Position numbers and translations under genes: made by a program. A stretch of DNA of 64,000 nucleotides from Methanosphaera stadtmanae. Lineage in GTDB: Archaea; Methanobacteriota; Methanobacteria; Methanobacteriales; Methanobacteriaceae. This document shows positions 12,715-34,321 of this stretch, one piece after another. How positions within the stretch are numbered: the stretch's first letter is position 1; every line of letters starts with the position of its first letter. The notes beneath the pieces were generated by a model that searched no databases, was not told the DNA's origin, and saw nothing but the letters and a program-made list of their open reading frames with translations. The stretch spans positions 62,001 through 126,000 of the forward strand of contig SUTQ01000003.1 of assembly GCA_015062805.1 (NCBI GenBank), written 5' to 3'.

Positions 12715-13623
12715 ATGACATTGAACTTATTGACAGAGGACATTAAATTAAATATGGCAAATCCCAAAGTATTTAAATTCAAAACTAATGCTCAACGATT
12801 TAAAATAAATTTTAAAGTTACTGATATTATTCGAGGTAATTATCCTCATGTAGGAATACCAGCACATGAAGGAATCATGGTTTTATACAGAAAATCAGTA
12901 AATTCACCTCAAAAAGATTTAAAAGAAAGAACTTGGTATAATGTTGAAGCATATACTGAAAGATACGATACAACCGTCTTTATGCATCATTTAGTTAAAC
13001 CTGGTGAAGAATATGAAGTAATGATTTATGGTCCCATATTAAGTAAAATATCTCAATTAGAAATTGAACATCCTGAAGGAACTTTTGCAGAAGAAATTAA
13101 AGAATCACCTAAATCAAAAATATTAGTTGCTGGAGGAACTATGAGTTTTGGTATTGGATGTACAACATCAGCTATGTTATTTTCCAGTATACTATCTCGA
13201 AAATTTAATGCATCAGTAGATCATTTAACATTCAATAATTCAAATTATTTAACTGATATTAATAACTATTATAAAGAAAATAATGAAAAAAATGAATATG
13301 ATATTGGAATTTTAGAATTAGATTATTCAAACCAGAAAGATGAACTTGTTGATACTTATCTTAAAAATGTAATTACAATGATGAAATCACATTGTAAAAA
13401 ATTAATCTGTTGGTATAGTCTCCCACCTTATAGATCATATAAGAAAAATAAAATTAATACTATATTAAATGAAATCCCATCTGAAAATATTATTTTTCAA
13501 GATATATCATACCTATTTGATAAAGAAAATGTAGATATATGCTCATATAGTGGAAATTTCATTAATGATTCAGGGAATATGTTAATTTACAAAAAACTAG
13601 AAGAAATTATTAGGAGTTTATAA
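12715..13623 (+). CDS. SGNH-like companion protein, copy 1 (catalytic Asp/His absent)
   Basis: It matches the layout of the downstream SGNH hydrolase: a beta-rich N-terminal half with G-I-M-V-L-Y, where the partner has the GxDLY motif, and an SGNH-like C-terminal half. Block I reads GGTMSFGIGC near residue 139, so Thr takes the nucleophile position. Block V reads SGNFINDSGNM, where a hydrolase has DxxHYTDYGM, so both catalytic Asp and His are missing. It is probably a non-catalytic partner or carbohydrate-binding protein. GGAGGAA precedes the ATG. It begins 1 nt after the upstream GT stop and ends 1 nt before the hydrolase gene. The 302-residue length is complete. Paralogues lie at 19128 and 32376. 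Confidence 0.65.
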   Translation: MTLNLLTEDIKLNMANPKVFKFKTNAQRFKINFKVTDIIRGNYPHVGIPAHEGIMVLYRKSVNSPQKDLKERTWYNVEAYTERYDTTVFMHHLVKPGEEYEVMIYGPILSKISQLEIEHPEGTFAEEIKESPKSKILVAGGTMSFGIGCTTSAMLFSSILSRKFNASVDHLTFNNSNYLTDINNYYKENNEKNEYDIGILELDYSNQKDELVDTYLKNVITMMKSHCKKLICWYSLPPYRSYKKNKINTILNEIPSENIIFQDISYLFDKENVDICSYSGNFINDSGNMLIYKKLEEIIRSL

Positions 13624-13624
13624 A

Positions 13625-14686
13625 ATGGAATACTTAACCGATATTAATAATTCTCTTAAAAGCATAAACGAAGAAAACGTTGAATATATTGATTTATTTG
13701 ATTATCCGGAATTATTTTATGGAACAACAAATTTTACTACTACACGCCTAAATTTATGTAAATTTCCAAAAGAAGCTCAAGAAGAAATCAAAGATTATGG
13801 TGCTGGAGCAGTAAGTGAAATGAAGAATTTGAATAGTTCGGCATGTGGTGTTCGTTTACGTTTTTTCACTGACAGTAAAAAACTTATTTTTAAAGTAAAA
13901 TTTAAACGCCGATGGGGATATCTTAAAATGGTCAATTGGGGTGGATTTGGTTTTGATGTTTATGGACTGAATAATGAGGAATATATCCATAGAACCGTAT
14001 TTGCACCAAATAACGGTCATAACATATTCGCTGAAACTATTTTACCACCAGAAAATGGACAGTTATGTATCTTCCTTCCAAATTATAACACTATTGAAGA
14101 ATTATATATGGGTATAGAACCTGGAAGTACCATTAAATCATTGAATTATCCTCCAGATAAACGATTACCTGTTTTATTTTATGGAAATTCAGTAACACAA
14201 GGTGCTGCTGCTTCTCATAGTGGAAATAGTTTTCCAAATATTGTGAGTAAAATTTTAAATAGGGATATTTTAAATATATCTTGTTCAGCTTGTTGTAGAG
14301 GAACAGATACTATGGCAGAGCTAATGGGAAAAATTAATTGTCATAGCATAATTATAGATTATACTCGAAATGCTTATAGTACACAAATATTCAAAGATAC
14401 TCACGAAAAATTTTACAAAAAAGTAAGAAGTCTACATCCTGATAAAAAAATAGTTTTGATGACTTCACAAAGCTTCAATCATTGGAGAGACTATGATGAA
14501 TTCGATGAAATAGTTGCCCAAACTTATAAAAATTCTATTGACAGAGGAGAAAATACTGAAATAATAAATCAAAAGCAATTATTTAATGATGAAGATTATG
14601 ATATTATAGCAATCGATTCAACACATTACACAGATTATGGAATGCATAAAATAGCGAAAAAAATATGTGAATTAATTGAAAAATAG
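13625..14686 (+). CDS. GxDLY/SGNH-family hydrolase, copy 1 (predicted glycan acyl-esterase)
   Basis: It is predicted to remove acyl groups from a carbohydrate. The N-terminal domain has GFDVY, matching the GxDLY motif that names that family. The C-terminal SGNH domain has block I YGNSVTQGA with the nucleophile Ser near residue 190. A GMA/GNS-type SGNSFPNIVS stretch and the CCRGT oxyanion region follow. The catalytic dyad is Asp331 and His334 in DSTHYTDYGM. The 353-residue length suits the GxDLY plus Lipase_GDSL_3 architecture. GGAG lies about 8 nt before the ATG, and the gene starts 1 nt after the companion's stop, so the two are probably made together. No signal peptide is seen, so it may act in the cytoplasm on lipid-linked or nucleotide-linked glycan. 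Substrate is inferred. Confidence 0.82.
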   Translation: MEYLTDINNSLKSINEENVEYIDLFDYPELFYGTTNFTTTRLNLCKFPKEAQEEIKDYGAGAVSEMKNLNSSACGVRLRFFTDSKKLIFKVKFKRRWGYLKMVNWGGFGFDVYGLNNEEYIHRTVFAPNNGHNIFAETILPPENGQLCIFLPNYNTIEELYMGIEPGSTIKSLNYPPDKRLPVLFYGNSVTQGAAASHSGNSFPNIVSKILNRDILNISCSACCRGTDTMAELMGKINCHSIIIDYTRNAYSTQIFKDTHEKFYKKVRSLHPDKKIVLMTSQSFNHWRDYDEFDEIVAQTYKNSIDRGENTEIINQKQLFNDEDYDIIAIDSTHYTDYGMHKIAKKICELIEK

Positions 14687-14735
14687 AAAATATTAGATCT
14701 TCCTGTTAAAAAAAAATGTTTATTCTGGTGTTTAA

Positions 14736-17700
14736 ATGATAAAAAAAATTAAAAATAAAATTTTAGAGAATAGTGGTAGTTATAAATATTATAAAAATAA
14801 ATATCAAACTTTAAAATCTCAAAATAAAGAAAAGGACAAAAAAATTAAAGAATTGAATAATGAAATTAAATTAAAAGACTTATCCATTACCAGATTACAA
14901 AATGAAAAACATGAACTTTCTACACAAAACATCCCCCAATCTTCTGATTCGGAATTTTTAGTAAATATTGAAAATACTGAAGGTCTGTTCACAGAAAACA
15001 AACTATTTGAAGATTTTGAATATGCTTTTTCCATAATTATTCCATTATTTAATTCTGAAAGATATTTAGAACAATGTATAATCTCAATTATCAATCAAAC
15101 CATCAATTTTAAAGAAAATGTGGAATTGATATTAATTGATGATGGAAGCAATGATTCAACAAAAGATATAAGTTTTAAATACAAAGAATTATATCCAACC
15201 AATATTTTTGTATACTCCCAAGAACATCAAGGTCAATCCATAGCACTTAATAATGGAATAAAATATTCAACAGGAAAATACATTAATTTCTTAGATAGTG
15301 AAGATTATTTGTCCAAAAATTGTCTTGAAGAAGTCTATAAATTTTTCCAGGAAAATAAAGAAATAGATGTAGTGAGTATTCCTATAAAAAATTTCGGTAG
15401 AAAAAACGATGGAGATTTATTCAACAACAAATTTAAATCAAAAGAAAATATTATTGATATCATCGAATCACCAGATTATCTCCAGTTTAAACTTTCATCT
15501 ACATTTATTAAATCAGAAGTTATTAAAAATGAAAATTACTCCTTTGAAGAAAAATTAAATGTATTAGAAGATTTTACATTTATAAATAAAATTTTATTAG
15601 ATAAGAAAAAATTAGGTTTAATAAAAAATGCAGTTTATCACAATAGACAAAGATTAGATTTCACATCAAAAGAAGATGAAATAATGAGGAATGACTCTTA
15701 TTTAAACGATGTGAAAAAAAGTATAGATATATTACTTGAATCTTGCGATAAAGAGGATAATGTACCTCTTTTTATTCAAAATTTAATTATCATTATTTCA
15801 TATAACCTAATAAATACAGATAACACTTTAAATGACGATACAACTCGGAAAATTAAATCAATAATTGCAAAAATTTTAGAAAATGTTGATGTGGATACTA
15901 TTAATTCAAATAATTACTTAGATAATCAATCTAAATTAATCTTGATTTACCTAAAAAATAATGAAAAAAAATCTATAGATATCAGTGAAGATAATAAAGT
16001 TTCATTAACCAGTAATGATATTACTTTAGACACATTAAATAATCATAAAATATATATCCAAAACTTTAGCAACAACGATGAAACAATAAAAATTACCGGT
16101 TTCTTCGGAACAAATTTCAATGATGAATTAATCAACTTAAAGTTTATTAAAGAGTACGATGATACAACAGAAGAATACAACTGTGAAATCAATTCAATAG
16201 TGAAAAAATCATTTTTAAACCTTGACTGGTTTTTTGAACATAACTTTTTTGTAGAGGTACCATTTAATAAAAATGATAATGCAAATTGTTATTTTAATAT
16301 AATTTATGAAAATACAAATGAAAAAATCATGATTAAACCTGAAATAACAAAAAAAGAGGTTAATCTTTTAAAAGAACAGAAAAATATTGTAATAAACCCT
16401 TATTTAATCACTATTAATAAAGATTCTTTTACTATAGAACATGGATATAACTTTTCAATCATTATTGCAATTTACAATACTGGAGAATATTTATATGAAA
16501 CAATTGATTCAGTTATTGGACAAACCTTATCATTTGAAGATAATGTTCAACTTATTCTAGTTGATGATGGTAGTGAAGATAATTCTAAAGAAATCTGTTT
16601 AAATTATCAGAAGCAATACCCTAACAATATAGTTGTTTTATCCCAAACAAATTCTGGCCAAGCTGTAGCTAGGAATAATGGTTTAAACTATGCAAAAGGA
16701 AAATACATTAATTTTTTAGATAGTGATGACTATATATCTGAAAATACATTAGAAACTGTTCTGACATTTTTCAATAAACATGAAAAAGAAATTGACATGG
16801 TTGCTATGCCAATTAAAATGTTCGGAAGATTAAACAAATATCATATTTTACAAGGAAAATTCCATAGAGAAAGGGTAATTGATCTTGAACTTGAACCAAA
16901 TAATCCTCAATTATCCGCTTCATCAGCATTTTTTAAGAACGAATTATTCCCTAAATTTAAATTTGCTGAAGATATGATTACATCTGAAGATTCTATAATG
17001 ATTAATAAAATTTTACTAGAAAAACAGAAATTTGGAGTAATAAATTCTGCAACTTATTATTATCGAAAAAGATTTGATTCTAGTTCTACAATAGATAATT
17101 CAATTCGTCAAAAAGAATTTTACACAGAAAAAATCAAAAACTATTTTATGGCATTGGAAGAGTACTCTTACGCAAAATTAGGTAAGATACCTTTATTTAT
17201 CCAATACCTAATTGCATATGATATCCAATGGCTTCTTAAAGAACCCGAATTAAAACTGTTAAACAACGAGGAAAGAGAAGATTTTATCAATCAAGTGAAA
17301 TATGTAATTTCAAATTTAGATGAACAGGTTATCTTTAAAAATCAATATGTTTCAAATGATGTTTTCAAAAATTTCTTCTATTATTTAATGAAAGGAAATT
17401 TTGATGTGAAACCTAAAAAAGATACTGTAGAAATATTCATAGGTAATAAAAGAATTGATAACTTAAAAATCCATAGCTTTTGGTTAGATATCGTTGAGAT
17501 TAAGGGTAATCTTTTGAATATTTCAGGATTATTGAGCAGTTATTTTCCTTCTGATCTTTTAGAAATTACTGCTGTTAAAGAAGATTACGATAATAATGTA
17601 ATTGATGAATATACTGGAAAAAAAGTGGAATACTCTGCAGATCAAGATGTGAAATTTTTAGATTATACTTGGCAATATAAGTATTTCTTTGACTTACATA

Positions 17701-19112
17701 TTCCAATTGAAGAAAATGAAAAATCTAACATAAAAATTTATGCAAATTATCATGAAAAAGATACAGACATACTAATATCTTGTCCATTGAACGTAAACTT
17801 TAAAAGACATTGCAGATTATCCAAAAATAGCAAATATATAGCAAAAGATTCACATATATTAACTTTCGAAAACAACACTTTTAAATTAGAAGGTTATCGC
17901 TATAAAAAGATGCGCGAATATGAACAGGAAGTATGTGAAAATATTGAAAAAGAAAAACCATTTGAATACCAATCTTTATTAAAATTAAGAAAACATTATT
18001 CAATATTATATTACATTAAAAACAAATTTTATAAAAAGCCAATTTATCTATTCATGGATAGATCAAATCATGCCGATGATAATGCAGAACATTTGTTTAG
18101 ATATGCAGTAAAACAAAAAGACAATATCAAAAAATTTTTCATAGTAGGTAACGATTCAGAACTAAGTAAGCTAAATAAAATAGGACCAACCCTAAAATAC
18201 AACTCATTCAAACATAGGTTAGTGTATTTACTTGCAGATAAAGTAATTTCATCACATCCTGATGAATATGTTTTAAATCCATTCTTTGAAGTCGATGAAG
18301 ATCAAAGAGATTTCATGAATAGTTTAATTACATCCGAAACATATTTTTTACAACATGGGGCAACATTAGGAAATGTTTCCGACTGGTTACATAAATATGA
18401 TAAAAATCTATCATTACTAGTGACTATTTCAGATAAAGAACATGATTCATTTTTAGAAAAAGGATATAATTACGACGAAAACATTATACAAACATTAGGT
18501 TTCCCACGATATGATAATCTATCCAACGATCCGAAAAAACAGATATTGATAATTCCTACTTGGAGACAAGACTTGGAAGTCAGTGAAGATGTTTTCAAAA
18601 ATTCTAGTTATTTCAAAAATATTACAGGTATATTAAATAATAAGGAATTGAGAAATAAATTGAAAGAAAAAGGTTATAAAATAGTATTTAAACCACATCC
18701 TAGATTAGAAAATAAAATACGTAACAGCAAAAAAAGGTTTATTGATTTATTTGAAATTGATGATGAAATAATTATATCACAAAATGAATCATATCAAGAT
18801 TTATTCAGAGAATCCAATATATTAATTACTGATTACTCATCAGTCGCATTTGATTTTGCTTACCTTAAAAAACCTATAATTTATTTCCAACCTAATGATG
18901 ATTATCATCACGGAAAAGGATATTTTGAATTTGAAACTATGGGCTTTGGAGAAGTAATTAAAGATAAAAACAAATTATTCAATAAAATAGATTATTATTT
19001 AGATAATGATTTTAAAATGGAAAACAAATATGTTGAAAGAGTTGAAACATTCTTCAAATTCACTGATAAAAATAATTGTGAAAGAGTATACAACTGGATA
19101 AAAGAACATTAA
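14736..19112 (+). CDS. Three-domain protein: GT2, GT2 and CDP-glycerol glycerophosphotransferase (TagF)-like
   Basis: This very long (1458-residue) predicted glycan polymerase or assembly enzyme begins with a charged coiled-coil (about 20-70). GT2 domain 1 starts near residue 98 (FSIIIPLFN) and has an altered metal site, LDSEDYL, near 186. A beta-rich linker leads to GT2 domain 2 near 574 (FSIIIAIYN) with an intact LDSDDYI near 661. Another beta-rich linker precedes the C-terminal domain (about 1100-1455). That domain has FMDRSNHADDNAEHL, LQHGATLG near 1207, FKPHPR and ITDYSSVAFDFAYLKKP near 1365, the hallmark of the TagF/TagB glycerophosphotransferases of teichoic acid synthesis. TGGTG precedes the ATG. 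Domain order suggests alternating sugar and polyol-phosphate addition. CDP-glycerol as donor is inferred. Confidence 0.85.
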   Translation: MIKKIKNKILENSGSYKYYKNKYQTLKSQNKEKDKKIKELNNEIKLKDLSITRLQNEKHELSTQNIPQSSDSEFLVNIENTEGLFTENKLFEDFEYAFSIIIPLFNSERYLEQCIISIINQTINFKENVELILIDDGSNDSTKDISFKYKELYPTNIFVYSQEHQGQSIALNNGIKYSTGKYINFLDSEDYLSKNCLEEVYKFFQENKEIDVVSIPIKNFGRKNDGDLFNNKFKSKENIIDIIESPDYLQFKLSSTFIKSEVIKNENYSFEEKLNVLEDFTFINKILLDKKKLGLIKNAVYHNRQRLDFTSKEDEIMRNDSYLNDVKKSIDILLESCDKEDNVPLFIQNLIIIISYNLINTDNTLNDDTTRKIKSIIAKILENVDVDTINSNNYLDNQSKLILIYLKNNEKKSIDISEDNKVSLTSNDITLDTLNNHKIYIQNFSNNDETIKITGFFGTNFNDELINLKFIKEYDDTTEEYNCEINSIVKKSFLNLDWFFEHNFFVEVPFNKNDNANCYFNIIYENTNEKIMIKPEITKKEVNLLKEQKNIVINPYLITINKDSFTIEHGYNFSIIIAIYNTGEYLYETIDSVIGQTLSFEDNVQLILVDDGSEDNSKEICLNYQKQYPNNIVVLSQTNSGQAVARNNGLNYAKGKYINFLDSDDYISENTLETVLTFFNKHEKEIDMVAMPIKMFGRLNKYHILQGKFHRERVIDLELEPNNPQLSASSAFFKNELFPKFKFAEDMITSEDSIMINKILLEKQKFGVINSATYYYRKRFDSSSTIDNSIRQKEFYTEKIKNYFMALEEYSYAKLGKIPLFIQYLIAYDIQWLLKEPELKLLNNEEREDFINQVKYVISNLDEQVIFKNQYVSNDVFKNFFYYLMKGNFDVKPKKDTVEIFIGNKRIDNLKIHSFWLDIVEIKGNLLNISGLLSSYFPSDLLEITAVKEDYDNNVIDEYTGKKVEYSADQDVKFLDYTWQYKYFFDLHIPIEENEKSNIKIYANYHEKDTDILISCPLNVNFKRHCRLSKNSKYIAKDSHILTFENNTFKLEGYRYKKMREYEQEVCENIEKEKPFEYQSLLKLRKHYSILYYIKNKFYKKPIYLFMDRSNHADDNAEHLFRYAVKQKDNIKKFFIVGNDSELSKLNKIGPTLKYNSFKHRLVYLLADKVISSHPDEYVLNPFFEVDEDQRDFMNSLITSETYFLQHGATLGNVSDWLHKYDKNLSLLVTISDKEHDSFLEKGYNYDENIIQTLGFPRYDNLSNDPKKQILIIPTWRQDLEVSEDVFKNSSYFKNITGILNNKELRNKLKEKGYKIVFKPHPRLENKIRNSKKRFIDLFEIDDEIIISQNESYQDLFRESNILITDYSSVAFDFAYLKKPIIYFQPNDDYHHGKGYFEFETMGFGEVIKDKNKLFNKIDYYLDNDFKMENKYVERVETFFKFTDKNNCERVYNWIKEH

Positions 19113-19127
19113 ATTAAAGTTGATAAT

Positions 19128-20009
19128 ATGAAAATTGAGTTATTACCTGAAAAAACTAATGAAAAAGATGTGCAATTTAGCAATCCATTAGTATTTCATT
19201 TAAAAACTAATTCAGAAAAAATTGAAATAGAATATGAAGTAACTGATATTATTAATGGAAATTTTCCACACGTTAGTTTGAACTCTAGAGAAGGAATACA
19301 TTTACTCTACAAAAAGGATGGATGGAAAAATTTTGATATTGATTATAAAAATTCAAAATTTTCTCTAGATTTAACCGATAAACTCAATGAAGAAAATACC
19401 TGTGAAATTTTAATTTATGGACCAATTTTAAGTAATCTGGGGAAATTATCATTAAGAATAAATGATAACTGTTACTTGGAACAAATAAAGAACAAAGATA
19501 ACATACTTATAGCTGGTGGTATTCATAGTTTAGGAATAGGATGTAATGCTGTTAGTACAATGTTTTCTACAATTGTTTCAAGAAAAATGAATTTAGAACC
19601 ACATTATCTGGTTTATTATAATAGAAATTTTTTAGAACAGTTATACAAATATTTTAAAGATTTAAGTGAGTTTCCTAAATATAAGTATGGAATTCTTGAA
19701 CTTGATTATGTGTTCCAGGATAATGTCTTTGTTGATAGACACTTGAAACAAGTGATAAATTTCATGATGAAATCCTGCGAAAATCTTATTTGTTGGTATA
19801 CATTACCTCCAAATCAAAAGAATAAGAAAAATAAGATTTTTAACATACTAGAACCTATATTAAATGGTGAAAATATAATCTTGGAAGATTCATCATTTAT
19901 TTATGAACCGAAATATGCTGACATGTGCACATATAGTAATAATTTTATTAACGATACGGGAAACATAATGATTTATAAAAGAATTGTTAAAAATTTGGAG
20001 GTTCTTTAA
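19128..20009 (+). CDS. SGNH-like companion protein, copy 2 (catalytic residues absent)
   Basis: A 293-residue paralogue of the products at 12715 and 32376. The N-terminal half has REGIHLLY, matching the GxDLY position. Block I reads GGIHSLGIGC near residue 129, with Ile instead of the nucleophile. The C-terminal block is NNFINDTGN, lacking the Asp-x-x-His pair. It also keeps the family's central LELDY and LICWYTLPP motifs, which all three companions share. The conservation of these suggests a retained non-catalytic role. A GTTGAT Shine-Dalgarno precedes the ATG. The following hydrolase gene begins on the next base after its stop. Confidence 0.62.
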   Translation: MKIELLPEKTNEKDVQFSNPLVFHLKTNSEKIEIEYEVTDIINGNFPHVSLNSREGIHLLYKKDGWKNFDIDYKNSKFSLDLTDKLNEENTCEILIYGPILSNLGKLSLRINDNCYLEQIKNKDNILIAGGIHSLGIGCNAVSTMFSTIVSRKMNLEPHYLVYYNRNFLEQLYKYFKDLSEFPKYKYGILELDYVFQDNVFVDRHLKQVINFMMKSCENLICWYTLPPNQKNKKNKIFNILEPILNGENIILEDSSFIYEPKYADMCTYSNNFINDTGNIMIYKRIVKNLEVL

Positions 20010-20945
20010 ATGGAATATTTAAAATCAATAAACGACGTAACATCACAGGACGAAAATTTTAATTTTATTGATATTACTGATAATTCAGATTTTATTCATG
20101 GAAATATGTTTGATAGTATCAAAGAGTTCCTTAATAAGTCTTTATACGATAGTTTTAAAAAAACCAGTAGTGGGAATAGGTTATGTTTTTCAACTTCATC
20201 AAGGAAAATTCTGCTAAAAGTAAAATTAAATAATGTTGAAGAATATCCAAATATTGTAGATTGGAATACAAAAGGGTTTGACGTTTATGAAGTAAACAAT
20301 GGAATATATTACCATAAAACGGTATTCGCACCTTTTAAAGAAAATAATATTTTTTCAGAGATTATTCATAATAAACCAAATTCTCAATTGTGTGTTTTTT
20401 TACCAAATTTTTCAAATATTGAAAAATTATTAATTGGGATTGAAAAAGATTCAGAATTAAAAAGTGTTAAATATCCAAATGAAGAAAATCCGATAATATT
20501 TTATGGAAACACGACGACTCAAGGAGCTTCTGCATCACGTAGTGGAAATTCATATCCCAATATAATCAGCAGAAAAAAAAATATGGATATGATTACTTTT
20601 ATTCATAAAGATAATGAAAATGAATATTCATTAATTAAATCATTAATTCAAAGTAAAAATAGTAATATAGTACTTCTTTTAAAACAAAACACTTTCAAAA
20701 CCAGTATCGAAGAAATACAAAAATTAAAGAAAGACACACAAAATATAATTATATTAATAGACGATGATTTCAATGATGATAATTTGAACTATGATGAATT
20801 GAATAATATGAAAATTTTTAGATATTCAGAATTATTTGAAATTAATGAATTAGATTATTTAACAACGGATAAGAAACATTTTACTGATTATGGAATGTAT
20901 ATTCTTGCTAAAAAAATATGTGAAAACATTACTGAAAATCATTAA
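20010..20945 (+). CDS. GxDLY/SGNH-family hydrolase, copy 2 (shortened and altered)
   Basis: A 311-residue paralogue of the 13625 and 33260 products. The N-terminal GFDVY motif is intact. Block I reads YGNTTTQGASAS, so the nucleophile Ser is replaced by Thr. The Asp-Lys-Lys-His dyad (TTDKKHFTDYGM) is kept. The stretch that in the other copies holds the CCRGT oxyanion region and the EIDC...IDYSR segment is shortened and replaced by Lys/Asp/Asn-rich sequence, so the protein is about 40 residues shorter. It is likely inactive or strongly altered. GGAGGTTC lies upstream of the ATG, and the gene directly abuts its companion. The next GT gene lies in the same frame right after its TAA. Confidence 0.65.
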   Translation: MEYLKSINDVTSQDENFNFIDITDNSDFIHGNMFDSIKEFLNKSLYDSFKKTSSGNRLCFSTSSRKILLKVKLNNVEEYPNIVDWNTKGFDVYEVNNGIYYHKTVFAPFKENNIFSEIIHNKPNSQLCVFLPNFSNIEKLLIGIEKDSELKSVKYPNEENPIIFYGNTTTQGASASRSGNSYPNIISRKKNMDMITFIHKDNENEYSLIKSLIQSKNSNIVLLLKQNTFKTSIEEIQKLKKDTQNIIILIDDDFNDDNLNYDELNNMKIFRYSELFEINELDYLTTDKKHFTDYGMYILAKKICENITENH

Positions 20946-20957
20946 GAGGCGATTAAA

Positions 20958-23536: not shown

Positions 23537-23548
23537 AAAATCACATTC

Positions 23549-24793: not shown

Positions 24794-25279
24794 TATTCTC
24801 CTCCAAACATATCAAATTACGATTAATATTTTAAAATTAATTAATTATATTTAATTAATAAAATATAAATTTTTGGTATTTAATATTAAAAAAAATGAGA
24901 AGTAGCTAATCATCTATAAAATAAATATTATCAAATTAAAAAAAAAAGGATTGTTTCGTTTTTCTAATATCAAATATTGAAAAATCTTTTTAATCAAATT
25001 TATATGATAACTTACATAATATAAACTTGATTAATATACCTCTACCTAATTACTAAGACATGTATAAAATACTTAAGTATACAACAATTAAAAATATAGG
25101 TACTTATTTAAAAATGGATTAAATTAATCAAGAATCTAATTTACTTAACAATGATGAATAATTTTCAAAAAATGAAACATTATATCTATATACTGTAGAT
25201 ATTTTTTAAAAAACAAGTGATTAAATAAAAAAATTAATTATAATCGAAATTATCAAAAAAATAGTAAAATAAGAAAAAA
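24794..25279. other. 486-nt A+T-rich spacer without a recognisable gene
   Basis: Both strands were read. Only short frames are present, the longest without clear ribosome binding sites. It contains the promoter region of the minus-strand 23549-22142 unit near its left end and an A/T-rich transcript end for the cytidylyltransferase gene near its right end. A short inverted repeat (ATCTA...TAGAT, 25186-25202) precedes T6. No tRNA, repeat array or insertion sequence is visible. Confidence 0.5.
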
Positions 25280-25999
25280 TTATGAATTTAATTTTTTTCT
25301 TCTTTCTTTCATTAAAACATAACCTTCAAAAAGATCCAAATCTTCTTTAGTTGTAATTTTAAGATTTATTTGATTGCCCTTAGAAAAATAAATTTCTTCA
25401 CCCATCAAATACATCAATGTTGTAGTATGTGGTTCTACTTTCTCTATCAATCCTTTTTCTATGGCCTCATCATACAAGTTAGTAACATATGAAAATTTAA
25501 AACACTGTGGTGCATTAAATATTACAACTTTATCCCTATCAATCCAAGTAGTTGATTTATCACCATCATTACTACCCAATAATAACAAGGATGACATAGC
25601 TGGAGAAGAGTTACCTTTTTCTTTACATACTCTTATTGCATCAGAAATAACATCATCAGTAACAAAAGGTGAAGCACCATAATGTACTAAAACAATATCC
25701 TCATCATTAATTTTCCCTTTAAGATTATTTATTCCATTTATAACAGAGTGTTGAAAATCTTCTCCACCAGGAGTTATCCATTTAACTTTATCAAGATTAT
25801 ATTGTTCAACTAAATCCTTTAAATACTCAATGTGACTTTCAATACAAACGACTTCTATTGCATCAATTTCAGGATGATTTTGAAATGCCTCAATAGTGTA
25901 CACTAATACAGGTTTTCCCAAGATATCAACAAATTGTTTTGGTCGATCAGCACCTAGTCTTGAACCAACGCCTCCAGCTAATATAATCGGAATATTCAT
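25280..25999 (-). CDS. IspD/TarI-family cytidylyltransferase
   Basis: It is predicted to couple CTP with a polyol or sugar phosphate to give a CDP-activated precursor. The N-terminal signature LAGGVGSRLGADRPKQF is that of the IspD/TarI family, with the catalytic Lys in PKQF, and NLKITTKEDL is typical of the C-terminus. Archaea make isoprenoids by the mevalonate route, so a TarI-like cell-surface role fits better than IspD. The usual HDAARPF motif reads HYGASPF, so the metal-binding Asp and the Arg are absent; this marks a divergent subgroup. Its ATG overlaps the stop of the LicC-LicA-like gene by 1 nt (TAATG) with a GAGGAGAT Shine-Dalgarno, so the two are translationally coupled. No TarJ-like dehydrogenase is seen. 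Confidence 0.83.
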   Translation of the reverse strand: MNIPIILAGGVGSRLGADRPKQFVDILGKPVLVYTIEAFQNHPEIDAIEVVCIESHIEYLKDLVEQYNLDKVKWITPGGEDFQHSVINGINNLKGKINDEDIVLVHYGASPFVTDDVISDAIRVCKEKGNSSPAMSSLLLLGSNDGDKSTTWIDRDKVVIFNAPQCFKFSYVTNLYDEAIEKGLIEKVEPHTTTLMYLMGEEIYFSKGNQINLKITTKEDLDLFEGYVLMKERRKKLNS

Positions 26000-27597
26000 T
26001 ATATCTCCTCATAACTCAATAAAACATCATCTATATTATCTAAAATATATCTATATGAAGTTAAGAAGAAAAATCCATCTTCTTCTCCTACACTACCTTT
26101 AAATAATCCCCAACTTATCCAGTATAACGCATTTAATATGGATTGTCCCATTGCATGCCTATGCTCTAACTCAGTCAATTCTCTACCATAAAATGCTTTT
26201 AATAATTTTTCCCGTACTTCCTCAGAATACTCGTATCTAGTAAATATACTACATACATCATTTGCAGGATCATTTATTCCAGAATATTCCCAGTCAATTA
26301 AGTAAAAATCACCTTCTTCAGTTGATATGAAATTAGGCTCATAAACATCATGATGACTAACAACTAACTCAATACCATACTTTTCTCTTTCTTGTTTTAC
26401 ATAACTATCTACTTGATCAATTTTAGAGAATAATTCTTCAAATTCCTTAAATAAGTTTCCTTTTGTTCTACAAGCTTTAGTAATTAATTTTTTTGATTCG
26501 ACAACATTATCAAACAATTTTGCTTCATCAGACAATGGTATTTCATGAGTTTTATGCAATGCATCCATTACTTGTTTTAAATGTGTTTCATTATTTAAAA
26601 TATCACATGGAATAATATTTTGTATAAAATGAGATATTTTCCATCCTGTTTTATCCATATAAATTAATGATTTGTCTAATCCATACTCTTTAGCTTTGTA
26701 TTGTGTATATAATTCCGTTCTTCTGTCAATTAAATTGTCCGCAGTTCCTCCAGGATGTCTATACACATATTCATGACCCTCTATAGAAAATTTAAATGAA
26801 ACATTCGTTAATCCTGCCTGGATTACTTCAATATCCTTAATATCATTAGGATGACAATCCAATGTTTTACAGATGTTACTAATAATTTCAGAGTCTACAT
26901 TTAATAAGAAATCAGAATCAAATTGCCTTAAATCATCTATTGAATCAAATTCCAATAATTCCTTTGAATCAAACTTATTCATATAAAGCGTTAATTCCTT
27001 TATGTGTGTAGCATAAAATTCTTCCCAGAACATATTAGCTATTCCAAAATCATTTATTTCCTCTTCTAATCTTTCTCTGAAAATTTTTGAAAAGCCTTCA
27101 TTAAAATATGCATGAGCTATCATAGCCATACTATTTTCTCCACCCACATAACAACCAGTAATTATGTCAGCATCTGAATTATCTATAGAAAATTCACGGA
27201 ATTTATCAGATATATATGTACATGCACGATAAGACCTGTTTTCTTCATTATTATCTATAAATGGATTAGTTAAAAAATAGTGATCGGCACAACAAATATA
27301 TGTATTTTTTAGATATTCCCTTGTTACATACAATGAGTATATATTTCCAAATTTACCATAAGTGTTATTTACAACTAATTTAACTTGAGGATACTTTTGT
27401 TCGAGATAGAAAAATTTTTCTTTCATATATCCTATTACAACACAGATTTCATTTACTCCTGCTTCAATCAACTGTTCAATTTGTCTTTCTATCAAGACTT
27501 CTCCTCTTACTATAAAGAGTCCTTTAGGTTTTTCATAACTGAATGGTGCAAATCTATCTGATTTTCCTGCTGCCATTATTATTGCATTTTTTTCCAT
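25999..27597 (-). CDS. LicC-LicA-like fusion: nucleotidyltransferase plus choline-kinase-like domain
   Basis: It is predicted to phosphorylate choline (or a related amino-alcohol) and activate it as a CDP derivative. Residues 1-230 are a nucleotidyltransferase of the LicC type, with IIMAAGKSDRF, EKPKGLF and VVIGYM. The C-terminal half (about 245-532) is a choline/aminoglycoside-kinase fold. It has the catalytic HHDVYEPN at 415-422 (Brenner motif HxDxxxxN) and LIDWEYSGINDPANDV from Asp435, which matches the choline kinase motif. GAGGTGT precedes the ATG. It is coupled to the TarI-like gene and lies 3 kb from a LicD-domain gene. Such fusions are known in bacteria, so acquisition by transfer is likely. 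Choline specificity is inferred; ethanolamine or another alcohol is possible. Confidence 0.85.
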   Translation of the reverse strand: MEKNAIIMAAGKSDRFAPFSYEKPKGLFIVRGEVLIERQIEQLIEAGVNEICVVIGYMKEKFFYLEQKYPQVKLVVNNTYGKFGNIYSLYVTREYLKNTYICCADHYFLTNPFIDNNEENRSYRACTYISDKFREFSIDNSDADIITGCYVGGENSMAMIAHAYFNEGFSKIFRERLEEEINDFGIANMFWEEFYATHIKELTLYMNKFDSKELLEFDSIDDLRQFDSDFLLNVDSEIISNICKTLDCHPNDIKDIEVIQAGLTNVSFKFSIEGHEYVYRHPGGTADNLIDRRTELYTQYKAKEYGLDKSLIYMDKTGWKISHFIQNIIPCDILNNETHLKQVMDALHKTHEIPLSDEAKLFDNVVESKKLITKACRTKGNLFKEFEELFSKIDQVDSYVKQEREKYGIELVVSHHDVYEPNFISTEEGDFYLIDWEYSGINDPANDVCSIFTRYEYSEEVREKLLKAFYGRELTELEHRHAMGQSILNALYWISWGLFKGSVGEEDGFFFLTSYRYILDNIDDVLLSYEEI

Positions 27598-27890
27598 GTG
27601 TTACACCTCAAAATATTAAATTACTATCTAATCATTAACACTCAATGAAAATGAATATTATAATAGTTATTTTGTTTTAAGTTAATAATAATATTTTTCA
27701 AATAGTAAATACTCATAATCTTAAACTATTATCTTGCTAATCTAAATTAGTTTTTCTTTAAAAAGGTCTTTAAGAGATGATTTAAAATAAAAAAATTAAA
27801 TAACGTTAAAAATTTAAAAAAAAGTATTAATTAAATAAAAAAAGAATGAAGGATTATTTTAAATGATTCCATATTAGATGTTTATATGTG
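27598..27890. other. 293-nt A+T-rich spacer
   Basis: This spacer lies between the LicC-LicA-like gene and the end of the 27891-29189 gene, both on the minus strand. No ORF with a ribosome binding site and no stable RNA fold is evident. It probably holds the terminator of the upstream unit and the promoter of the licCA-like operon. Confidence 0.4.
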
Positions 27891-29189
27891 CTATTTTTTA
27901 TTTGAAGAACTGATTTTTGAATTGATATAATCCTCATATTCAATATTAAGTTTTCGCTTAGAAATTAATTTTTTGGATTCATCTTTAATTTTTAAATTTT
28001 CGTTAATAAGAGTATCATATAATTCAAGATTTTTATTTAAATAATCAGATTCAATTTTCAATAATTTATTTTCTTGTTTTAACCTATTAATAGTGGATGC
28101 GGAAGATAAAGCAATATACTCATTAAAATTATCGCTGTTTAAAATATTTTCATATTTTTCAAAAATTAAAGCAAAGTCTGCATCCTCTTCAAGGATATTT
28201 TTGACTTCATTTTTGAAAATAACCTGTTTTAATAAAAATTCTTTAGTTTTATTAAAAAGAAGGTTTGAATACTCTTCTTGGAAACCAACATAAATAGAAT
28301 TAGAATTATAATATTTAGAATAATCAAAATATTTATTTCTAAAATTTTTCCTTTCATTTTTAGGAACATGTAATATATAATCATGGAATTTAGACATGTC
28401 TAAATTATCTGTAAGAATTTTTAATTTAAACTTAATAAATTCGTTTTCATATTTTTCTAACAAATTTCTTCTCAATAAATAGTTTTCAATTCCTTCAATT
28501 GCATCAACAACTTCCAAAGAAGAACAATCGGCAGAAATCATATGATCATTAATTAATTTAAAGTTTTCATGAATGTTCAATGCCTTGTGAAATAGCAAGG
28601 TATCCTCAACTGAAAATACGTTTTTAGATAACACACTAATTTTTATGTCAAATACGAAATCAAAAACATTGTCATTATCAAAAATTTTTTCAAAATTATA
28701 TATTAAAAATTTTCTTGAAAATAACTTATTGTATAAATTATTTAAATTTGAAAAAATATATTTTTTAAAATCTTCTGAATCACAATTGACTACTTTTTGT
28801 CTTTCAACAGACCACTTTTCTTTTAGTTTTTTTTCGAAAAAATTTCTATTAATTTTATCCTCTTTAGAATAATTGTTAGAATTAAAACATATGAAATCTA
28901 AATCATTATTTGAAATATTATTTAAAAGAACGTTTAAAGAATCTGTTAATAAATAATCACCAGATTTTAAGAAAAGAACATACTCTCCGTTACATTTATT
29001 AATTATATTCTCGAATGAATCCTTATTAAATATTTTAATATAATCTACTTTGGTTTCAATATTTTCATTATTCAAATATAAAATTTCAAAATTTTTAAAT
29101 GATTGATTCTCTAATGAATTAATCGTAATGTTCTGATTATTATTATCCTCTCTCAAAAAAATTATAGAAAGTTTTGGCTCAACAGTCAT
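27891..29189 (-). CDS. Degenerate GT2-like protein
   Basis: A 432-residue protein with a recognisable GT2 outline (LSIIFLRED, TINSLENQSFKNFEILYLN, GEYVLFLKSGDYLL). The nucleotide-binding DGS-D motif is gone, and the metal-binding site reads LKSGD where active paralogues have LDSDD. The C-terminus is long, charged and coiled-coil-like (KLLKIESDYLNKNLELYDTL). The N-terminus is spaced like its neighbours and a GGAG Shine-Dalgarno precedes the ATG, so it appears expressed. It follows the intact GT2 at 29265 on the same strand, the same intact-degenerate pairing seen at 9882 and 8783. A non-catalytic partner or scaffold is one explanation; decay is another. Confidence 0.65.
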   Translation of the reverse strand: MTVEPKLSIIFLREDNNNQNITINSLENQSFKNFEILYLNNENIETKVDYIKIFNKDSFENIINKCNGEYVLFLKSGDYLLTDSLNVLLNNISNNDLDFICFNSNNYSKEDKINRNFFEKKLKEKWSVERQKVVNCDSEDFKKYIFSNLNNLYNKLFSRKFLIYNFEKIFDNDNVFDFVFDIKISVLSKNVFSVEDTLLFHKALNIHENFKLINDHMISADCSSLEVVDAIEGIENYLLRRNLLEKYENEFIKFKLKILTDNLDMSKFHDYILHVPKNERKNFRNKYFDYSKYYNSNSIYVGFQEEYSNLLFNKTKEFLLKQVIFKNEVKNILEEDADFALIFEKYENILNSDNFNEYIALSSASTINRLKQENKLLKIESDYLNKNLELYDTLINENLKIKDESKKLISKRKLNIEYEDYINSKISSSNKK

Positions 29190-29264
29190 ATCTATTCTCC
29201 AAATTTATTAAAAACTTCTTTAACCTATCAATTAAGTGAATAAAGTTATATTTAGAAAAATCAT

Positions 29265-30443
29265 CTAATTTTCATTAGTTAATTCTTGTTTTTCACATAC
29301 AGAAAGGTTTTTTTCTTGTAATTTTACCAATTCTTTTTCAAAAAGATTGTTTTTCTTTAAAACTCTAATTAAATCTTCATTATCAGTATGTAATTCATCT
29401 ATTAATATTCTTGACTTATTTTTTTGGAAATTATTTTTATTTTTTAAGTCATAATTTTCCATCAATAATTCGAATTCCATGTATTCTCTTGATTTTAAAA
29501 CTGAATCTAAAATATATTTATTTTTAGGATGTAAAATCGTTTGTAAATAATCATAGAGATTTTCTTCTTTTAACCAATTGAAAAAATTTTTTTGTAATTC
29601 ATCAAAATATATTGATTTAAATTCTTCTTTAAGTTTATTAAAACGAATATATGACAATGAAATTTTTCTATTACATAAAATACTTCTTGATTTATCATCT
29701 AATTTACCATATTCCTTAAATAAGTCTAATATCATCGTATTGATAATTATTGAATCAATAAACCTTTTATCTCCAGCACGAGTAGAAGAAGTATTACGCC
29801 ATCGACGTGTAAATAAAAATTCATCTAAAAAATAAATTTTTTCAGCTAGAAACAACGATTCCCAAAAAACTATATTATCCTCAAAGATTAAACCTTCTGG
29901 AAAACGTATCCCATGATTTTTAATGAAATCTTTCTTGTACAATTTTGTCCATGGAGTTACTGCCATATTAAAACTCAATTCTTTCAAATCATTATAGTTA
30001 AATACTTCATCCCCAACACGATTTACAACAGCTTGCATACTATAATTTTCCGTTTCATAATATTCTTCAGTTTCTTCATCATAATTTATAGCTTTAAAAA
30101 ATACAAAGTCTACATTTTTCTCCTCTGCAGCTTTAAAAGTTTTTTCTAAAGCAGAAACATCTAAAATATCATCAGAATCCATAAAAAATAGGTATTTACC
30201 CTGAGCTAAATCTATTCCCTTATTAGTTGCAACCGCATGCCCCATGTTTTCTTGTGAAATAATCATTATTCTATTATCACTTTGAGCATATTCTTTCAAA
30301 ATATTTAAAGAATTATCAGTTGATCCATCATTAACACATATAATTTCAATATCACTAAGTGTTTGATTAACAATACTATCCATACATAATTTTAAATATT
30401 TTTCAACATTATACACTGGAATAATTACTGATACTTTAACCAT
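29265..30443 (-). CDS. GT2 family glycosyltransferase (paralogue group B)
   Basis: Intact GT2 domain with VSVIIPVYNVE, VNDGSTDNS and FMDSDD near residue 88. It shares TPWTKLY, FPEGLIFEDN and RRWRNTSSTRAGD with the 7753 and 22142 products. The C-terminal tail is coiled-coil-like (ELHTDNEDLIRVLKKNN) but lacks the SNSWKLT motif of the others. GTGGGGT precedes the ATG. It lies 85 nt downstream of the LicD-domain gene and upstream of a degenerate GT2, suggesting one operon from 32139 down to 27891. Donor sugar is unknown. Confidence 0.87.
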   Translation of the reverse strand: MVKVSVIIPVYNVEKYLKLCMDSIVNQTLSDIEIICVNDGSTDNSLNILKEYAQSDNRIMIISQENMGHAVATNKGIDLAQGKYLFFMDSDDILDVSALEKTFKAAEEKNVDFVFFKAINYDEETEEYYETENYSMQAVVNRVGDEVFNYNDLKELSFNMAVTPWTKLYKKDFIKNHGIRFPEGLIFEDNIVFWESLFLAEKIYFLDEFLFTRRWRNTSSTRAGDKRFIDSIIINTMILDLFKEYGKLDDKSRSILCNRKISLSYIRFNKLKEEFKSIYFDELQKNFFNWLKEENLYDYLQTILHPKNKYILDSVLKSREYMEFELLMENYDLKNKNNFQKNKSRILIDELHTDNEDLIRVLKKNNLFEKELVKLQEKNLSVCEKQELTNEN

Positions 30444-30528
30444 TCAAACCCCACAACTTATAGTATTTTGTCCAAATAATTAATAAAAATTAAAAAAAAA
30501 TGAGAAGGAATAATAACTTTAGAATGTT

Positions 30529-32139
30529 TTAAAATTTAAATTTCTTATTTACATTATATATTCTTTTTAAATCAGCTTTAAATATTTCAGGAGCCTTTTC
30601 ATCATATCTGAAACGACCCACCCTATTATGCGTACGAATAGTAGGTGGAACTTCCATAAAGTTTCCATAAATATTTTTTAAATATTCATAAGAGTTATTA
30701 GGAGCATAAAATTCATAATCCCCATAAGGAACATTTTTCAGAGGGAATACATCTTCTGACTTAAATATCATTAATTTGTACAAATTATGTAGTCCACAGG
30801 CCCCTTCAACACCTGGAATAACATACTTATCATAATCCATATTCAAATTCAAAGATTTATAATAATTTTTAAGAACTGAATCAGGATCCAATCCATTATA
30901 AGCTAAGCTAAAATCATTTCCTTCAGTTAACTCCCTGTAATAGTCAAGTTTAGTATTATAATATATTTCATTAATAGTTTCTTCATCATAATCCATGATG
31001 AAATCATATGGGAATACATCTACACCAGCAAATATTGTATTTCCAGCATAATCTGTTTTATGAATATCAAATATTTGAAGGAATGAATTTACTTTATTAT
31101 TGTCAATTTTCCGTTTTCTATAACTTACCCTAAGAATATCATCCAATTTATTTTCTTTGATTTCATCAATAATTACTTCATTTAATTGATTATATTCCTT
31201 TCTCATCATTCCTATATCAACATCATCATCCCAAGGAATAAAATACTGATGCCTAATTGCACCTAATAAAGTTCCATAATCTAACCACCATTCAAGATCA
31301 TATTTTTTACAAACATTTCCTACAAAAGATAGTAATTCAGTACATAAATCTTGAGTATACTTTAATAAATTTTTAGACTTTAATTCATGATCTAAAAACA
31401 AATTATTAAATAAAAAATTGTTTGATTCTAGTACTTCATTGGTATATTGTTCAAAATTATCAAATCGTTCTTTCAAATTAATTACTTCTTGTAACAAACG
31501 TTCATAATTTTTATCTGTATCATTTCTGGAGAAAAATGTGGAAACAATACTATCTTCAGAATATAATTCAAAATCACTAAATTTAATAAAAGAATCTTTA
31601 GATAATCTCCAAGTGAAATAACCTTTACCTTCTTTCAAACTGAATGAATAAGATTTAATTTTTTTATTATTAATGAAAATAACCAACTTATTATTCTCGT
31701 AAGAAATTAAAATATGGTCATTAGTTTTTAAAGAAAAATTATCTATATTAATGTTTTGAAAAGATTCTTCAAGATTTACAAAACGTAAAGAAACATTGCT
31801 ATGACCCAAGTAATTAAATTCCATTTTAAATGATACTGGTAATATTAAACGATTATGATTATTATCTGTTAAATATGAAAAAAATATTTTTTTAGACTTA
31901 TTTTCAATTAAAGAATAAGTTTCAAACCTTTGAATATTATTTTCTTTACTCCAACAATCATTGTGTTCTACTTGTATTCCTTTATCTTTTTGAATAATAT
32001 TATGAACAACCGTGTTATTAATTAAATCAAAAAATGTTAAATTATTTGGATTTATTAAACCAAGAGAATTGATTTCGTTAGACTTATCCATTGTCAATAT
32101 ATTTAGAGAAACACTATTAGTATTATCGTTTTTTGCCAT
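30529..32139 (-). CDS. LicD-domain phosphocholine transferase-like protein with N-terminal beta-sandwich
   Basis: It is predicted to attach phosphocholine (or a related phospho-substituent) to a glycan. The LicD domain starts near residue 258 with DLCTELLSFVGNVCKKYDL, followed by WLDYGTLLGAIRH near 287 and the metal-binding IPWDDDVDIGM near 302-310, the defining LicD motif of the nucleotidyltransferase fold. The N-terminal 200 residues are beta-rich (FKMEFNYLGHSNVSLRF, then GYFTWRLS) and resemble a concanavalin-like sandwich, perhaps for glycan binding. GGTGA precedes the ATG. With the LicC-LicA-like fusion 3 kb away it would complete a choline, phosphocholine, CDP-choline, glycan route. No LicB choline transporter is present in the window. 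Confidence 0.85.
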   Translation of the reverse strand: MAKNDNTNSVSLNILTMDKSNEINSLGLINPNNLTFFDLINNTVVHNIIQKDKGIQVEHNDCWSKENNIQRFETYSLIENKSKKIFFSYLTDNNHNRLILPVSFKMEFNYLGHSNVSLRFVNLEESFQNINIDNFSLKTNDHILISYENNKLVIFINNKKIKSYSFSLKEGKGYFTWRLSKDSFIKFSDFELYSEDSIVSTFFSRNDTDKNYERLLQEVINLKERFDNFEQYTNEVLESNNFLFNNLFLDHELKSKNLLKYTQDLCTELLSFVGNVCKKYDLEWWLDYGTLLGAIRHQYFIPWDDDVDIGMMRKEYNQLNEVIIDEIKENKLDDILRVSYRKRKIDNNKVNSFLQIFDIHKTDYAGNTIFAGVDVFPYDFIMDYDEETINEIYYNTKLDYYRELTEGNDFSLAYNGLDPDSVLKNYYKSLNLNMDYDKYVIPGVEGACGLHNLYKLMIFKSEDVFPLKNVPYGDYEFYAPNNSYEYLKNIYGNFMEVPPTIRTHNRVGRFRYDEKAPEIFKADLKRIYNVNKKFKF

Positions 32140-32375
32140 TTTTTTTCACCATATAAATAAGAAATGTAAATTATTCGAGTCTATAAATTTTTTATTATAC
32201 ATTAGTTATGTTATTCTTAATTAATAAAATTTTGAGTACTATATACAAAAAGTGATAATAAAAAACCAAAATATTCAGAAAAAGATTTTATAGCAAGTCT
32301 ATACAAAAATTTTTATTTAAATGAAATCAAATATATATTTATAATATAATAAGTTAGGGGGAACTCTTTATAATT
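32140..32375. promoter_or_regulatory. Divergent promoter region between the licD-like operon and SGNH module 3
   Basis: A 236-nt A+T-rich spacer with transcription leaving in both directions. A TATA-like element (TATATATTTA, 32332-32341) lies about 25 nt before the GGGGGA Shine-Dalgarno at 32357-32362 and would serve the plus-strand SGNH module. The minus-strand promoter cannot be assigned with certainty. Confidence 0.4.
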
Positions 32376-33272
32376 TTGAATTTTTTTGAATCGGAAAAGA
32401 TGCATAGAACACAAGTAGATTCTATGGCTTATACATTTGAAAGCAATGCTCAACAATTTACTGTTAATTATGAAGTTTCACATGTTGTTAAAGGTTATTT
32501 TCCACAAATAGGTCTTACCGCCCGTGAAGGAATATGTATAATGTACAGACCTTCTGGAGAGAATCAATGGTTTAATATAGATTGTTATACAATCATTTCA
32601 TCAGTTAATGTAAATATGAATAATTTTGTTGAAAAAGATGAAGTATACGAAATCATGATTTATGGGCCAATTATTGGAAAATTATCTAAATTAGAAATTG
32701 AGTTCCCAGATGAATCATATGCTAAAATAATTAATTGGATTCCTGATAAAAGCATATGCGTTGCAGGTGGTTCCAATAGTTTTGGAGTAGGTTGTACAAC
32801 TACTGGATTGATGTTTTCAAATATACTGGAAAGAAAACTTGGTGCACAAGTGTATCACATAACATATAACCACAAAAATTATTTAGAATCCATCCATAAT
32901 TATTATAAAAATTCAAATCCCCCTGTATGTGATGTTGGAATTCTTGAATTAGATCATTATAGTCAAAATGAATCAATCGTAGAAAATTTACTTCCAGAAG
33001 TAATTTCATTAATGAATCAAAGATGCAAATATTTGATTGGATGGTATAGTCTGGCAAATGTAAAATCTTATAAGAAAATTATTGCAAATAATACTATTCA
33101 TGATTTTATTTATAATAATGAAATTGAAATAGTAGATTTATCTTATTTGTACGATGAGAAATATAGAGAAATGTGTACTTATAATAATTATTATATTAAT
33201 GATACAGGTAACATAATGGTTTATAAAGAGCTAAAAGATGGCATTAGGAGGATTACAAAGTGGAAAATTTAG
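32376..33272 (+). CDS. SGNH-like companion protein, copy 3 (catalytic Asp/His absent)
   Basis: A 298-residue paralogue of the 12715 and 19128 products. The N-terminal half has REGICIMY at the GxDLY position. Block I reads GGSNSFGVGC, so a Ser is present at the nucleophile position here. The C-terminal block reads NNYYINDTGN, with no Asp-x-x-His, so hydrolytic activity is doubtful. LELDH and IGWYSLA match the shared central motifs. The start is uncertain. The TTG at 32376 lies 13 nt after GGGGGA, which is rather far, and a non-canonical ATA at 32370 or the ATG at 32400 are alternatives. Its 3' end overlaps the hydrolase gene by 13 nt. Confidence 0.63.
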   Translation: MNFFESEKMHRTQVDSMAYTFESNAQQFTVNYEVSHVVKGYFPQIGLTAREGICIMYRPSGENQWFNIDCYTIISSVNVNMNNFVEKDEVYEIMIYGPIIGKLSKLEIEFPDESYAKIINWIPDKSICVAGGSNSFGVGCTTTGLMFSNILERKLGAQVYHITYNHKNYLESIHNYYKNSNPPVCDVGILELDHYSQNESIVENLLPEVISLMNQRCKYLIGWYSLANVKSYKKIIANNTIHDFIYNNEIEIVDLSYLYDEKYREMCTYNNYYINDTGNIMVYKELKDGIRRITKWKI

Positions 33273-34321
33273 TTTCAATTAAAGACCCCTTAAAAACTAT
33301 AAACGAAAATAACATCCAATATCTGAACATATTTAATCATCCTAGCCTAGTTTATGGAAATACTGTTAAATCAGACAAAGTTGATTTTTGTAAATATAAT
33401 CAAGAAATTCAAGATGAAATGAAAGCATGTGGTGAATATTTAGATAATGCCATGCAATATCATAAAGCATCAACTTGTGGAAATAGAATTAGATTCAAAA
33501 GTACTTCACGAAGGTTAGTGTTTAAAGTTGAATTGAAAAGAGCTTATAATTACAAGAATATGGTTTCATGGAATTCATCAGGGATTGAAATATTCTTAAT
33601 AGATACTGATGGAAAATACCATAATTATTCCATAATTGCTCCGAAAGAAGGATATAGTATATTTGCAGAACAAATAAACATCCCTCCTAACAGTTCTGTT
33701 TGTATATTTTTACCAAATTATAATTCCATACTTGATATGTACATTGGTTTTGAACGTGGATCAAGAATAAAACAATTACCTTACCCAAAAAAGAATAGAA
33801 AACCAATATTATTCTATGGAAACAGTACAACACAAGGAGCTTCAGCAACAAAAAGTGGGAATAGTTTTCCAAATATTGTTAGTAGAAAATTAAATCATGA
33901 CATTATAAATTTATCTATGATAACCTGTTGCAGGGGAACACAAAAAACAGCCGAAATGATTGGTGATATAGATTGTGAAGCCATTGTAATTGATTATTCA
34001 AGATACGCCCCTAATTTAGAATACCTTAAAAATACACACGAAGCATTCTATAAAAAAATTAGGGAAAAACATCCGGATAAAAAAATTATTATAATGACAA
34101 CAGCATGTTTTAACAACTGGAAAACTTACGATGCATATGACGATGTAATTATCCAAACATATGAAAATGCCGTTGCAAATGGGGAAAATACCCTTCTTCT
34201 AAATCAGAAAGCATTATTTAACAGAAAAGATTATGATTTAATAGCTATTGACATTGGCCATTATACAGATTATGGAATGTTCAAAATAGCTGAAAAAATA
34301 TGTGAATTACTTAATTCATAA
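33260..34321 (+). CDS. GxDLY/SGNH-family hydrolase, copy 3 (predicted glycan acyl-esterase)
   Basis: A 353-residue close paralogue of the 13625 product. The GxDLY position reads GIEIF. Block I is YGNSTTQGASAT with the nucleophile Ser near residue 189. The CCRGT oxyanion region and IDYSR segment are intact, and the catalytic dyad is Asp331 and His334 in DIGHYTDYGM. All catalytic elements are present, so this copy and copy 1 are the likely active enzymes. GTG start at 33260 with AGGAGG 8 nt upstream, inside the companion gene, so the two are translationally coupled. No signal peptide. A strong T-rich terminator follows. Confidence 0.82.
   Translation: MENLVSIKDPLKTINENNIQYLNIFNHPSLVYGNTVKSDKVDFCKYNQEIQDEMKACGEYLDNAMQYHKASTCGNRIRFKSTSRRLVFKVELKRAYNYKNMVSWNSSGIEIFLIDTDGKYHNYSIIAPKEGYSIFAEQINIPPNSSVCIFLPNYNSILDMYIGFERGSRIKQLPYPKKNRKPILFYGNSTTQGASATKSGNSFPNIVSRKLNHDIINLSMITCCRGTQKTAEMIGDIDCEAIVIDYSRYAPNLEYLKNTHEAFYKKIREKHPDKKIIIMTTACFNNWKTYDAYDDVIIQTYENAVANGENTLLLNQKALFNRKDYDLIAIDIGHYTDYGMFKIAEKICELLNS

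Follow-up and report, generated by a model that had tools for sequence, protein, structure and literature searches.

A stretch of 64,000 nucleotides (nt) from contig SUTQ01000003.1 (assembly GCA_015062805.1), called the window below, carries three copies of a two-gene unit in which the gene of an SGNH hydrolase of the GxDLY/Lipase_GDSL_3 type (the hydrolase) lies directly behind the gene of a degenerate relative (the companion). The source genome is archaeal, 2.1 Mb in size and of the Methanosphaera type; among the named relatives that carry these genes, the nearest are metagenome assemblies of Methanosphaera and other Methanobacteriaceae. Since, in the surface-sugar gene clusters of these gut methanogens, the hydrolase always stands directly behind its degenerate relative, the two proteins probably act together as a single unit to edit or grip acetylated surface polymers. 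The open-access literature, which cannot prove absence, is consistent with the original prediction that no such pair has been described in archaea.

All three pairs are encoded on the plus strand (Table 1). As had been predicted, the genes are separated by 1 nt in pair 1 and abut in pair 2, while in pair 3 the final codons of the companion run into the start of the hydrolase (spacings of +1, 0, and -13 nt). The companions are 42% and the hydrolases 38-50% identical to copy 1, so the recurrence of the pair is not due to chance; a whole-genome search found three of each gene and no fourth copy of either in the same genome. The hydrolases match PF14607 (GxDLY) and PF14606 (Lipase_GDSL_3), copy 2 in part only, with PF14606 scores above the Pfam cut-off in all three (83.5, 42.2, and 85.7 bits), and their profile matches Protein Data Bank (PDB) entry 4lhs with an E value of 1.4e-29. 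We read the active sites by the SGNH blocks I, II, III, and V with Ser, Gly, Asn, and Asp-x-x-His. The Ser (GNS) and D-x-x-H claimed for hydrolase copies 1 and 3 are indeed present, copy 3 having in addition Tyr in place of the oxyanion Asn (DYSRY for DYTRN). In copy 2, Ser is replaced by Thr (GNTTTQG) and the block II/III region is gone, with D-x-x-H retained; the complete S-G-N-H set is found in the window in copy 1 alone. Companion 3 has no ATG where its homologues start (32370-32378); the frame there reads ATA ATT TTG, about 8 nt after GGGGG, and translation may begin from TTG or from a rare ATA/ATT codon.

Table 1. Paired genes and neighboring genes in the window
Feature	Coordinates	Strand	Description
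Companion 1	12715..13623	+	302 amino acids (aa); degenerate GxDLY + SGNH protein; GxDLY E 2.8e-4, below cut-off
Hydrolase 1	13625..14686	+	353 aa; PF14606 E 2.9e-23, PF14607 E 2.5e-13; complete S-G-N-D-H set (S189, G226, N249, D331, H334)
Companion 2	19128..20009	+	293 aa; GxDLY E 3.4e-4
Hydrolase 2	20010..20945	+	311 aa, degenerate; PF14606 match covers positions 2-37 only
Companion 3	32376..33272	+	298 aa; TTG start uncertain; GxDLY E 5.9e-4
Hydrolase 3	33260..34321	+	353 aa; GTG start; PF14606 E 6.3e-24
Glycosyltransferase-2-like gene, directly upstream of companion 1	11436..12713	+	PF00535 E 2.8e-4, below cut-off
Two glycosyltransferase-2 domains + TagF-like glycerophosphotransferase, between pairs 1 and 2	14736..19112	+	PF00535 E 9e-65, PF04464 E 1.2e-48
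IspD/TarI-like cytidylyltransferase	25280-25999	-	
Nucleotidyltransferase + choline-kinase-like protein	25999-27597	-	
LicD-family protein	30529..32139	-	PF04991 E 1.7e-30
Hexapeptide O-acetyltransferase	38125..38985	+	phmmer E 7.2e-26 to polysialic acid O-acetyltransferase 3jqy

We then determined how the companion is related to the hydrolase, using 18 distinct companion sequences both for the profile and for the active-site reading. Aligned with the hydrolase profile (20 sequences), the companion profile gave an hhalign probability of 95.6 (E 1.1e-8 over 269 columns), and it matched PDB 4lhs with an E value of 1.7e-7. An AlphaFold2 model of companion 1 built from 12 sequences (predicted local distance difference test score [pLDDT], 82; predicted template modeling score [pTM], 0.79) was compared by Foldseek over the whole chain and retrieved 4lhs (E 3e-14, prob 1.00), SsfX3 (3skv), and the CE2 esterases 2wab and 2waa. 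Because of these profile and predicted-fold matches to 4lhs, SsfX3, and CE2, the companion is, as modeled, a jelly-roll plus SGNH protein and a true SGNH-fold homologue, and its identification as an unrelated lectin was rejected on the same fold and profile evidence. Against a Pfam cut-off of 27 bits, the GxDLY scores were 20-21 bits for the window companions, 32.7 bits for G077, and 38.8 bits for G118d, with E below 0.01 in 13 of the 18; none of the companions matched PF14606.

The catalytic residues are missing from the companion throughout. At the D-x-x-H site the window companions read SGNFINDSGN, NNFINDTGN, and NNYYINDTGN, with neither Asp nor His, and a D-x-x-H was found in none of the 18, so the absence of the dyad predicted for the three window copies extends to the whole set. 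The nucleophile position is occupied by I, L, T, S, P, F, or V, with Ser in 3 of the 18, companion 3 among them. Conserved instead are companion-specific motifs, namely, GGxxSxGIGC(T/N), (L/I/F)E(L/V/I/A)(D/E/N), and C......[FY]INDxxN, and of the 40 companion columns with the highest conservation, 16 are among the 50 that make up blocks I, II, III, and V (p 2e-4, with the block limits set by hand from the alignment).

Profile searches for both proteins in 139 Methanobacteriaceae genomes found companions in 10 and hydrolases in 11. A hydrolase lies directly downstream of 19 of the 20 companions, and the twentieth (G118d) lies directly behind a hydrolase. Conversely, 19 of the 21 hydrolases follow a companion, the exceptions being a second hydrolase in G112 and the hydrolase of G116, which is 16 nt from a contig end. 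The G112 exception (L094:7337-8383, minus strand) sits right behind a complete pair and has Glu in place of Ser and no Asp-His. A search with the Lipase_GDSL_3 family recovered the same 21 genes and no other protein of this family. The constant pairing and order put forward from the window thus hold in all 19 junctions, which span -26 to +4 nt, and the search for companions away from a hydrolase returned none. Ten junctions measure exactly -13 nt; here the codons for K-W-N-I at the companion end overlap those for M-E-Y-L at the hydrolase start, an arrangement that suggests translational coupling of the two genes. A functional KWNI tail was rejected as an explanation, since the bases behind these residues are those with which the hydrolase gene begins. 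No companion relatives were found outside Methanobacteriaceae in a phylum search of 152 genomes or in a scan of GTDB species by the INDxGN motif, which would pick up close relatives alone. Viral contigs likewise contained none, nor did plasmids and phages by tblastn, and a phage or plasmid origin of the pair was rejected for want of a match.

The two genes also appear to have been inherited together. Companion and hydrolase trees contain the same three orthologue groups, corresponding to window copies 1, 2, and 3, and the partner distances correlate in a mirror-tree comparison (r 0.55), a value reached by none of 5000 free permutations and by 25 of 5000 within-genome permutations, the identity itself being among the latter. 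The ratio of nonsynonymous to synonymous substitution rates (dN/dS) was 0.062 for the companions and 0.073 for the hydrolases of G117a and G118a, a pair that is under purifying selection with no Asp-His in either gene. Among companions of related genomes it was 0.06-0.16, with dS near saturation, and the other values, 0.13-0.39, are rough because dS is near or at saturation. The possibility that the companion is a pseudogene was rejected in view of this purifying selection.

Among the 19 full-length distinct hydrolases, the full set of Ser, Gly, Asn, Asp, and His was found in nine, including copy 1 and two members of the Methanobrevibacter clade. Of the incomplete ones, G000c, G114a, and G118b keep Ser, Asp, and His and have lost Asn, G122c keeps the same three residues and has lost blocks II and III, and in the remaining ones Ser, Asp, or His, or more than one of them, is missing. 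Catalytic residues have been lost in window hydrolase 2, G116, G117a, G118a (in the latter two Asp has become Asn and His has become Tyr), G122a (Asp to Glu), and the second G112 hydrolase. The proposed combination of a pseudoenzyme with an esterase therefore stood in its first half and was not supported in its second for those pairs whose hydrolase has lost catalytic residues: the partner has the makings of an esterase in about half of the pairs, and in the others the unit is kept without a full catalytic set.

The pairs are surrounded by genes of the kinds listed in Table 1 (glycosyltransferase-2, TagF-like, LicD, IspD/TarI-like, and choline-kinase-like), which make up, judging by their domains, a teichoic-acid-like pathway. 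The glycosyltransferase-2-like gene upstream of companion 1 recurs in the same order in G122 and G114. In the gene at 25999-27597, nucleotidyltransferase and choline/ethanolamine-kinase-like domains are joined in a single protein adjoining the IspD/TarI-like and LicD genes, which suggests a phosphocholine-like decoration of an archaeal glycopolymer. Teichoic-acid-like genes and high wall phosphate have been reported for Methanobrevibacter ruminantium, and the existence of teichoic-acid-like glycopolymers in gut methanogens is deduced solely from genes and wall phosphate (PMC2812497). The nearest solved relative of the O-acetyltransferase at 38125-38985 is the meningococcal polysialic acid O-acetyltransferase. 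Homologues occur in 39 of the 139 genomes (E 1e-10), many of them without the pair; in 6 of the 10 companion-bearing genomes a full-length one lies within 15 kb of a pair, and in G111 it follows the hydrolase after 4 nt, while in G122 it is next to the hydrolase. Hydrophobic N-termini, signal peptide-like segments, and membrane segments are absent from all companions and hydrolases; without a hydrophobic N-terminus, both proteins should be cytoplasmic.

We propose that each pair would form one cytoplasmic two-subunit SGNH module within a teichoic-acid-like glycopolymer pathway. The hydrolase, of the GxDLY/Lipase_GDSL_3 type, would be an esterase or transacylase that works on O-acyl, most likely O-acetyl, groups. 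The companion would be its paralogue, having lost the catalytic residues and kept the two-domain fold with a strongly conserved, remodeled cleft, and would serve as an obligate substrate-binding or allosteric partner, near-zero spacing and overlap allowing 1:1 synthesis by translational coupling. The presence of a polysialate-type O-acetyltransferase near the pairs, together with the glycopolymer genes, was counted as support for an O-acyl module. We infer the physical complex, the acetyl substrate, the catalytic activity of the intact members, and the cleft-binding role of the companion, and to the proposal in its specific form, a translationally coupled cytoplasmic O-acyl esterase module with a substrate-binding pseudo-esterase that acts on a teichoic-acid-like polymer, we give an even chance. 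To look at the complex itself, we modeled the G122 pair (L045), orthologous to window pair 1, as a single chain read in frame through one stop codon. The model had a pLDDT of 77.9 and a pTM of 0.67; the latter is above the expectation for two unoriented domains but is no more than suggestive of a complex.

Several observations weigh against this proposal. Of the 19 full-length hydrolases, 10 have an incomplete set of Ser, Gly, Asn, Asp, and His, and catalysis is therefore not the common denominator of the pairs. As of a 2022 review (PMC9487903), no Lipase_GDSL_3 member had been biochemically characterized. No full-length O-acetyltransferase was found in G112, G114, G116, G117, or G118, and the fused model, being suggestive only, yields pLDDT and pTM values and no view of the interface.

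The losses of catalytic residues enumerated above are what would be expected if the pair mainly bound the glycopolymer or its enzymes, or served them as a scaffold, without catalysis; esterase activity would then be ancestral, kept in some copies and lost in others, so that both subunits can be pseudoenzymes. The low dN/dS of both genes of G117a/G118a points the same way, as does the position of Ser, Asp, and His outside the 40 most conserved hydrolase columns, and there are precedents in the CtCE2 esterase cleft, which binds cellulose noncatalytically (PMC2661963), and in Oskar with its inactive SGNH domain (PMC2848206). However, the complete SGNH set in nine full-length hydrolases would be unexpected had catalysis never mattered, and we regard a mainly noncatalytic pair as possible, if rather unlikely. 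Unlikely, too, is a lineage-specific pair whose conserved function is that of a glycan-recognition unit, in which Cys, Glu-Leu-Asp, and INDxGN would make the companion cleft a new, conserved binding (or catalytic) site; esterase activity of the partner would then be optional, and fully noncatalytic pairs would therefore persist.

The module could also be an acyltransferase, with the SGNH Ser receiving the acyl group of a carrier and an acceptor sugar or polyol being presented by the companion. The second Foldseek relative, SsfX3, is a salicylyl-acyltransferase, and the setting of the pair is biosynthetic and cytoplasmic, unlike that of the stand-alone relatives near glycoside hydrolases; however, the closest solved relative by sequence, 4lhs, is an uncharacterized putative lipase, and the same cluster already has a separate O-acetyltransferase, which makes this explanation improbable. 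That the two proteins do not touch, being enzymes or relics that are co-transcribed but have separate tasks and were brought together by tandem duplication and horizontal cassette spread, would suit their paralogy, since a tandem origin explains adjacency at birth, and the fusion of a G118 companion to DUF6270 with no hydrolase behind it, but is very improbable given that order and spacing persist in two genera and across three or more deep orthologue groups and that the 139 genomes contain no unpaired Lipase_GDSL_3 gene.

The G118 fusion is a natural one, a 582-aa frame (L080:9917-11665, minus strand) combining DUF6270 (PF19786, E 1e-30) with a companion that is nearly identical to the neighboring companion, whose start is overlapped by a second DUF6270 gene. 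In G115, the frame immediately before the pair is that of a large glycosyltransferase to which DUF6270 is joined. The GSCxS start and HY end of DUF6270 are, in our reading, reminiscent of SGNH blocks; a DUF6270 search against the PDB gave no match.

Being small, co-expressible, and tied to an O-acetyltransferase, the two-gene module offers a route to the study of archaeal surface decoration and allows one to ask whether the enzyme needs its pseudo-esterase, and the pairs form a natural series in which the enzyme half decays and the pair is retained. Among known proteins, 4lhs (BACOVA_00914) has the same two-domain GxDLY plus Lipase_GDSL_3 architecture as the hydrolase, matching both families; in the companion the N-terminal family is matched weakly and the fold as a whole is matched. 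Plasmid relatives of this type are solitary and mostly lie among glycan-degrading genes, whereas here a catalytically degenerate paralogue always precedes the enzyme, in biosynthetic clusters. SsfX3 has the same two-domain fold as the companion (about 12% identity) and a cytoplasmic biosynthetic role; it is a single protein with an active Ser in a small-molecule pathway, unlike the two-gene module. The CE2 enzymes CtCE2 and CjCE2A resemble the companion in their jelly roll plus SGNH fold (about 10% sequence identity), and the noncatalytic glycan binding by the SGNH cleft of CtCE2 (PMC2661963) is a precedent for it, but CE2 modules are esterases that act outside the cell on plant polysaccharides and have Ser-His or Ser-His-Asp, whereas the companion has no His and no signal peptide-like segment. 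The OSK domain of Oskar, like the companion, combines an SGNH fold and a disrupted triad with a binding role (PMC2848206, PMC9487903); unlike the companion, it is eukaryotic, RNA related, and has no active paralogue partner. PAF acetylhydrolase Ib alpha1/alpha2 is a heterodimer of SGNH paralogues (a reference cited in PMC9487903); unlike in the companion-hydrolase pair, both of its subunits are catalytic.

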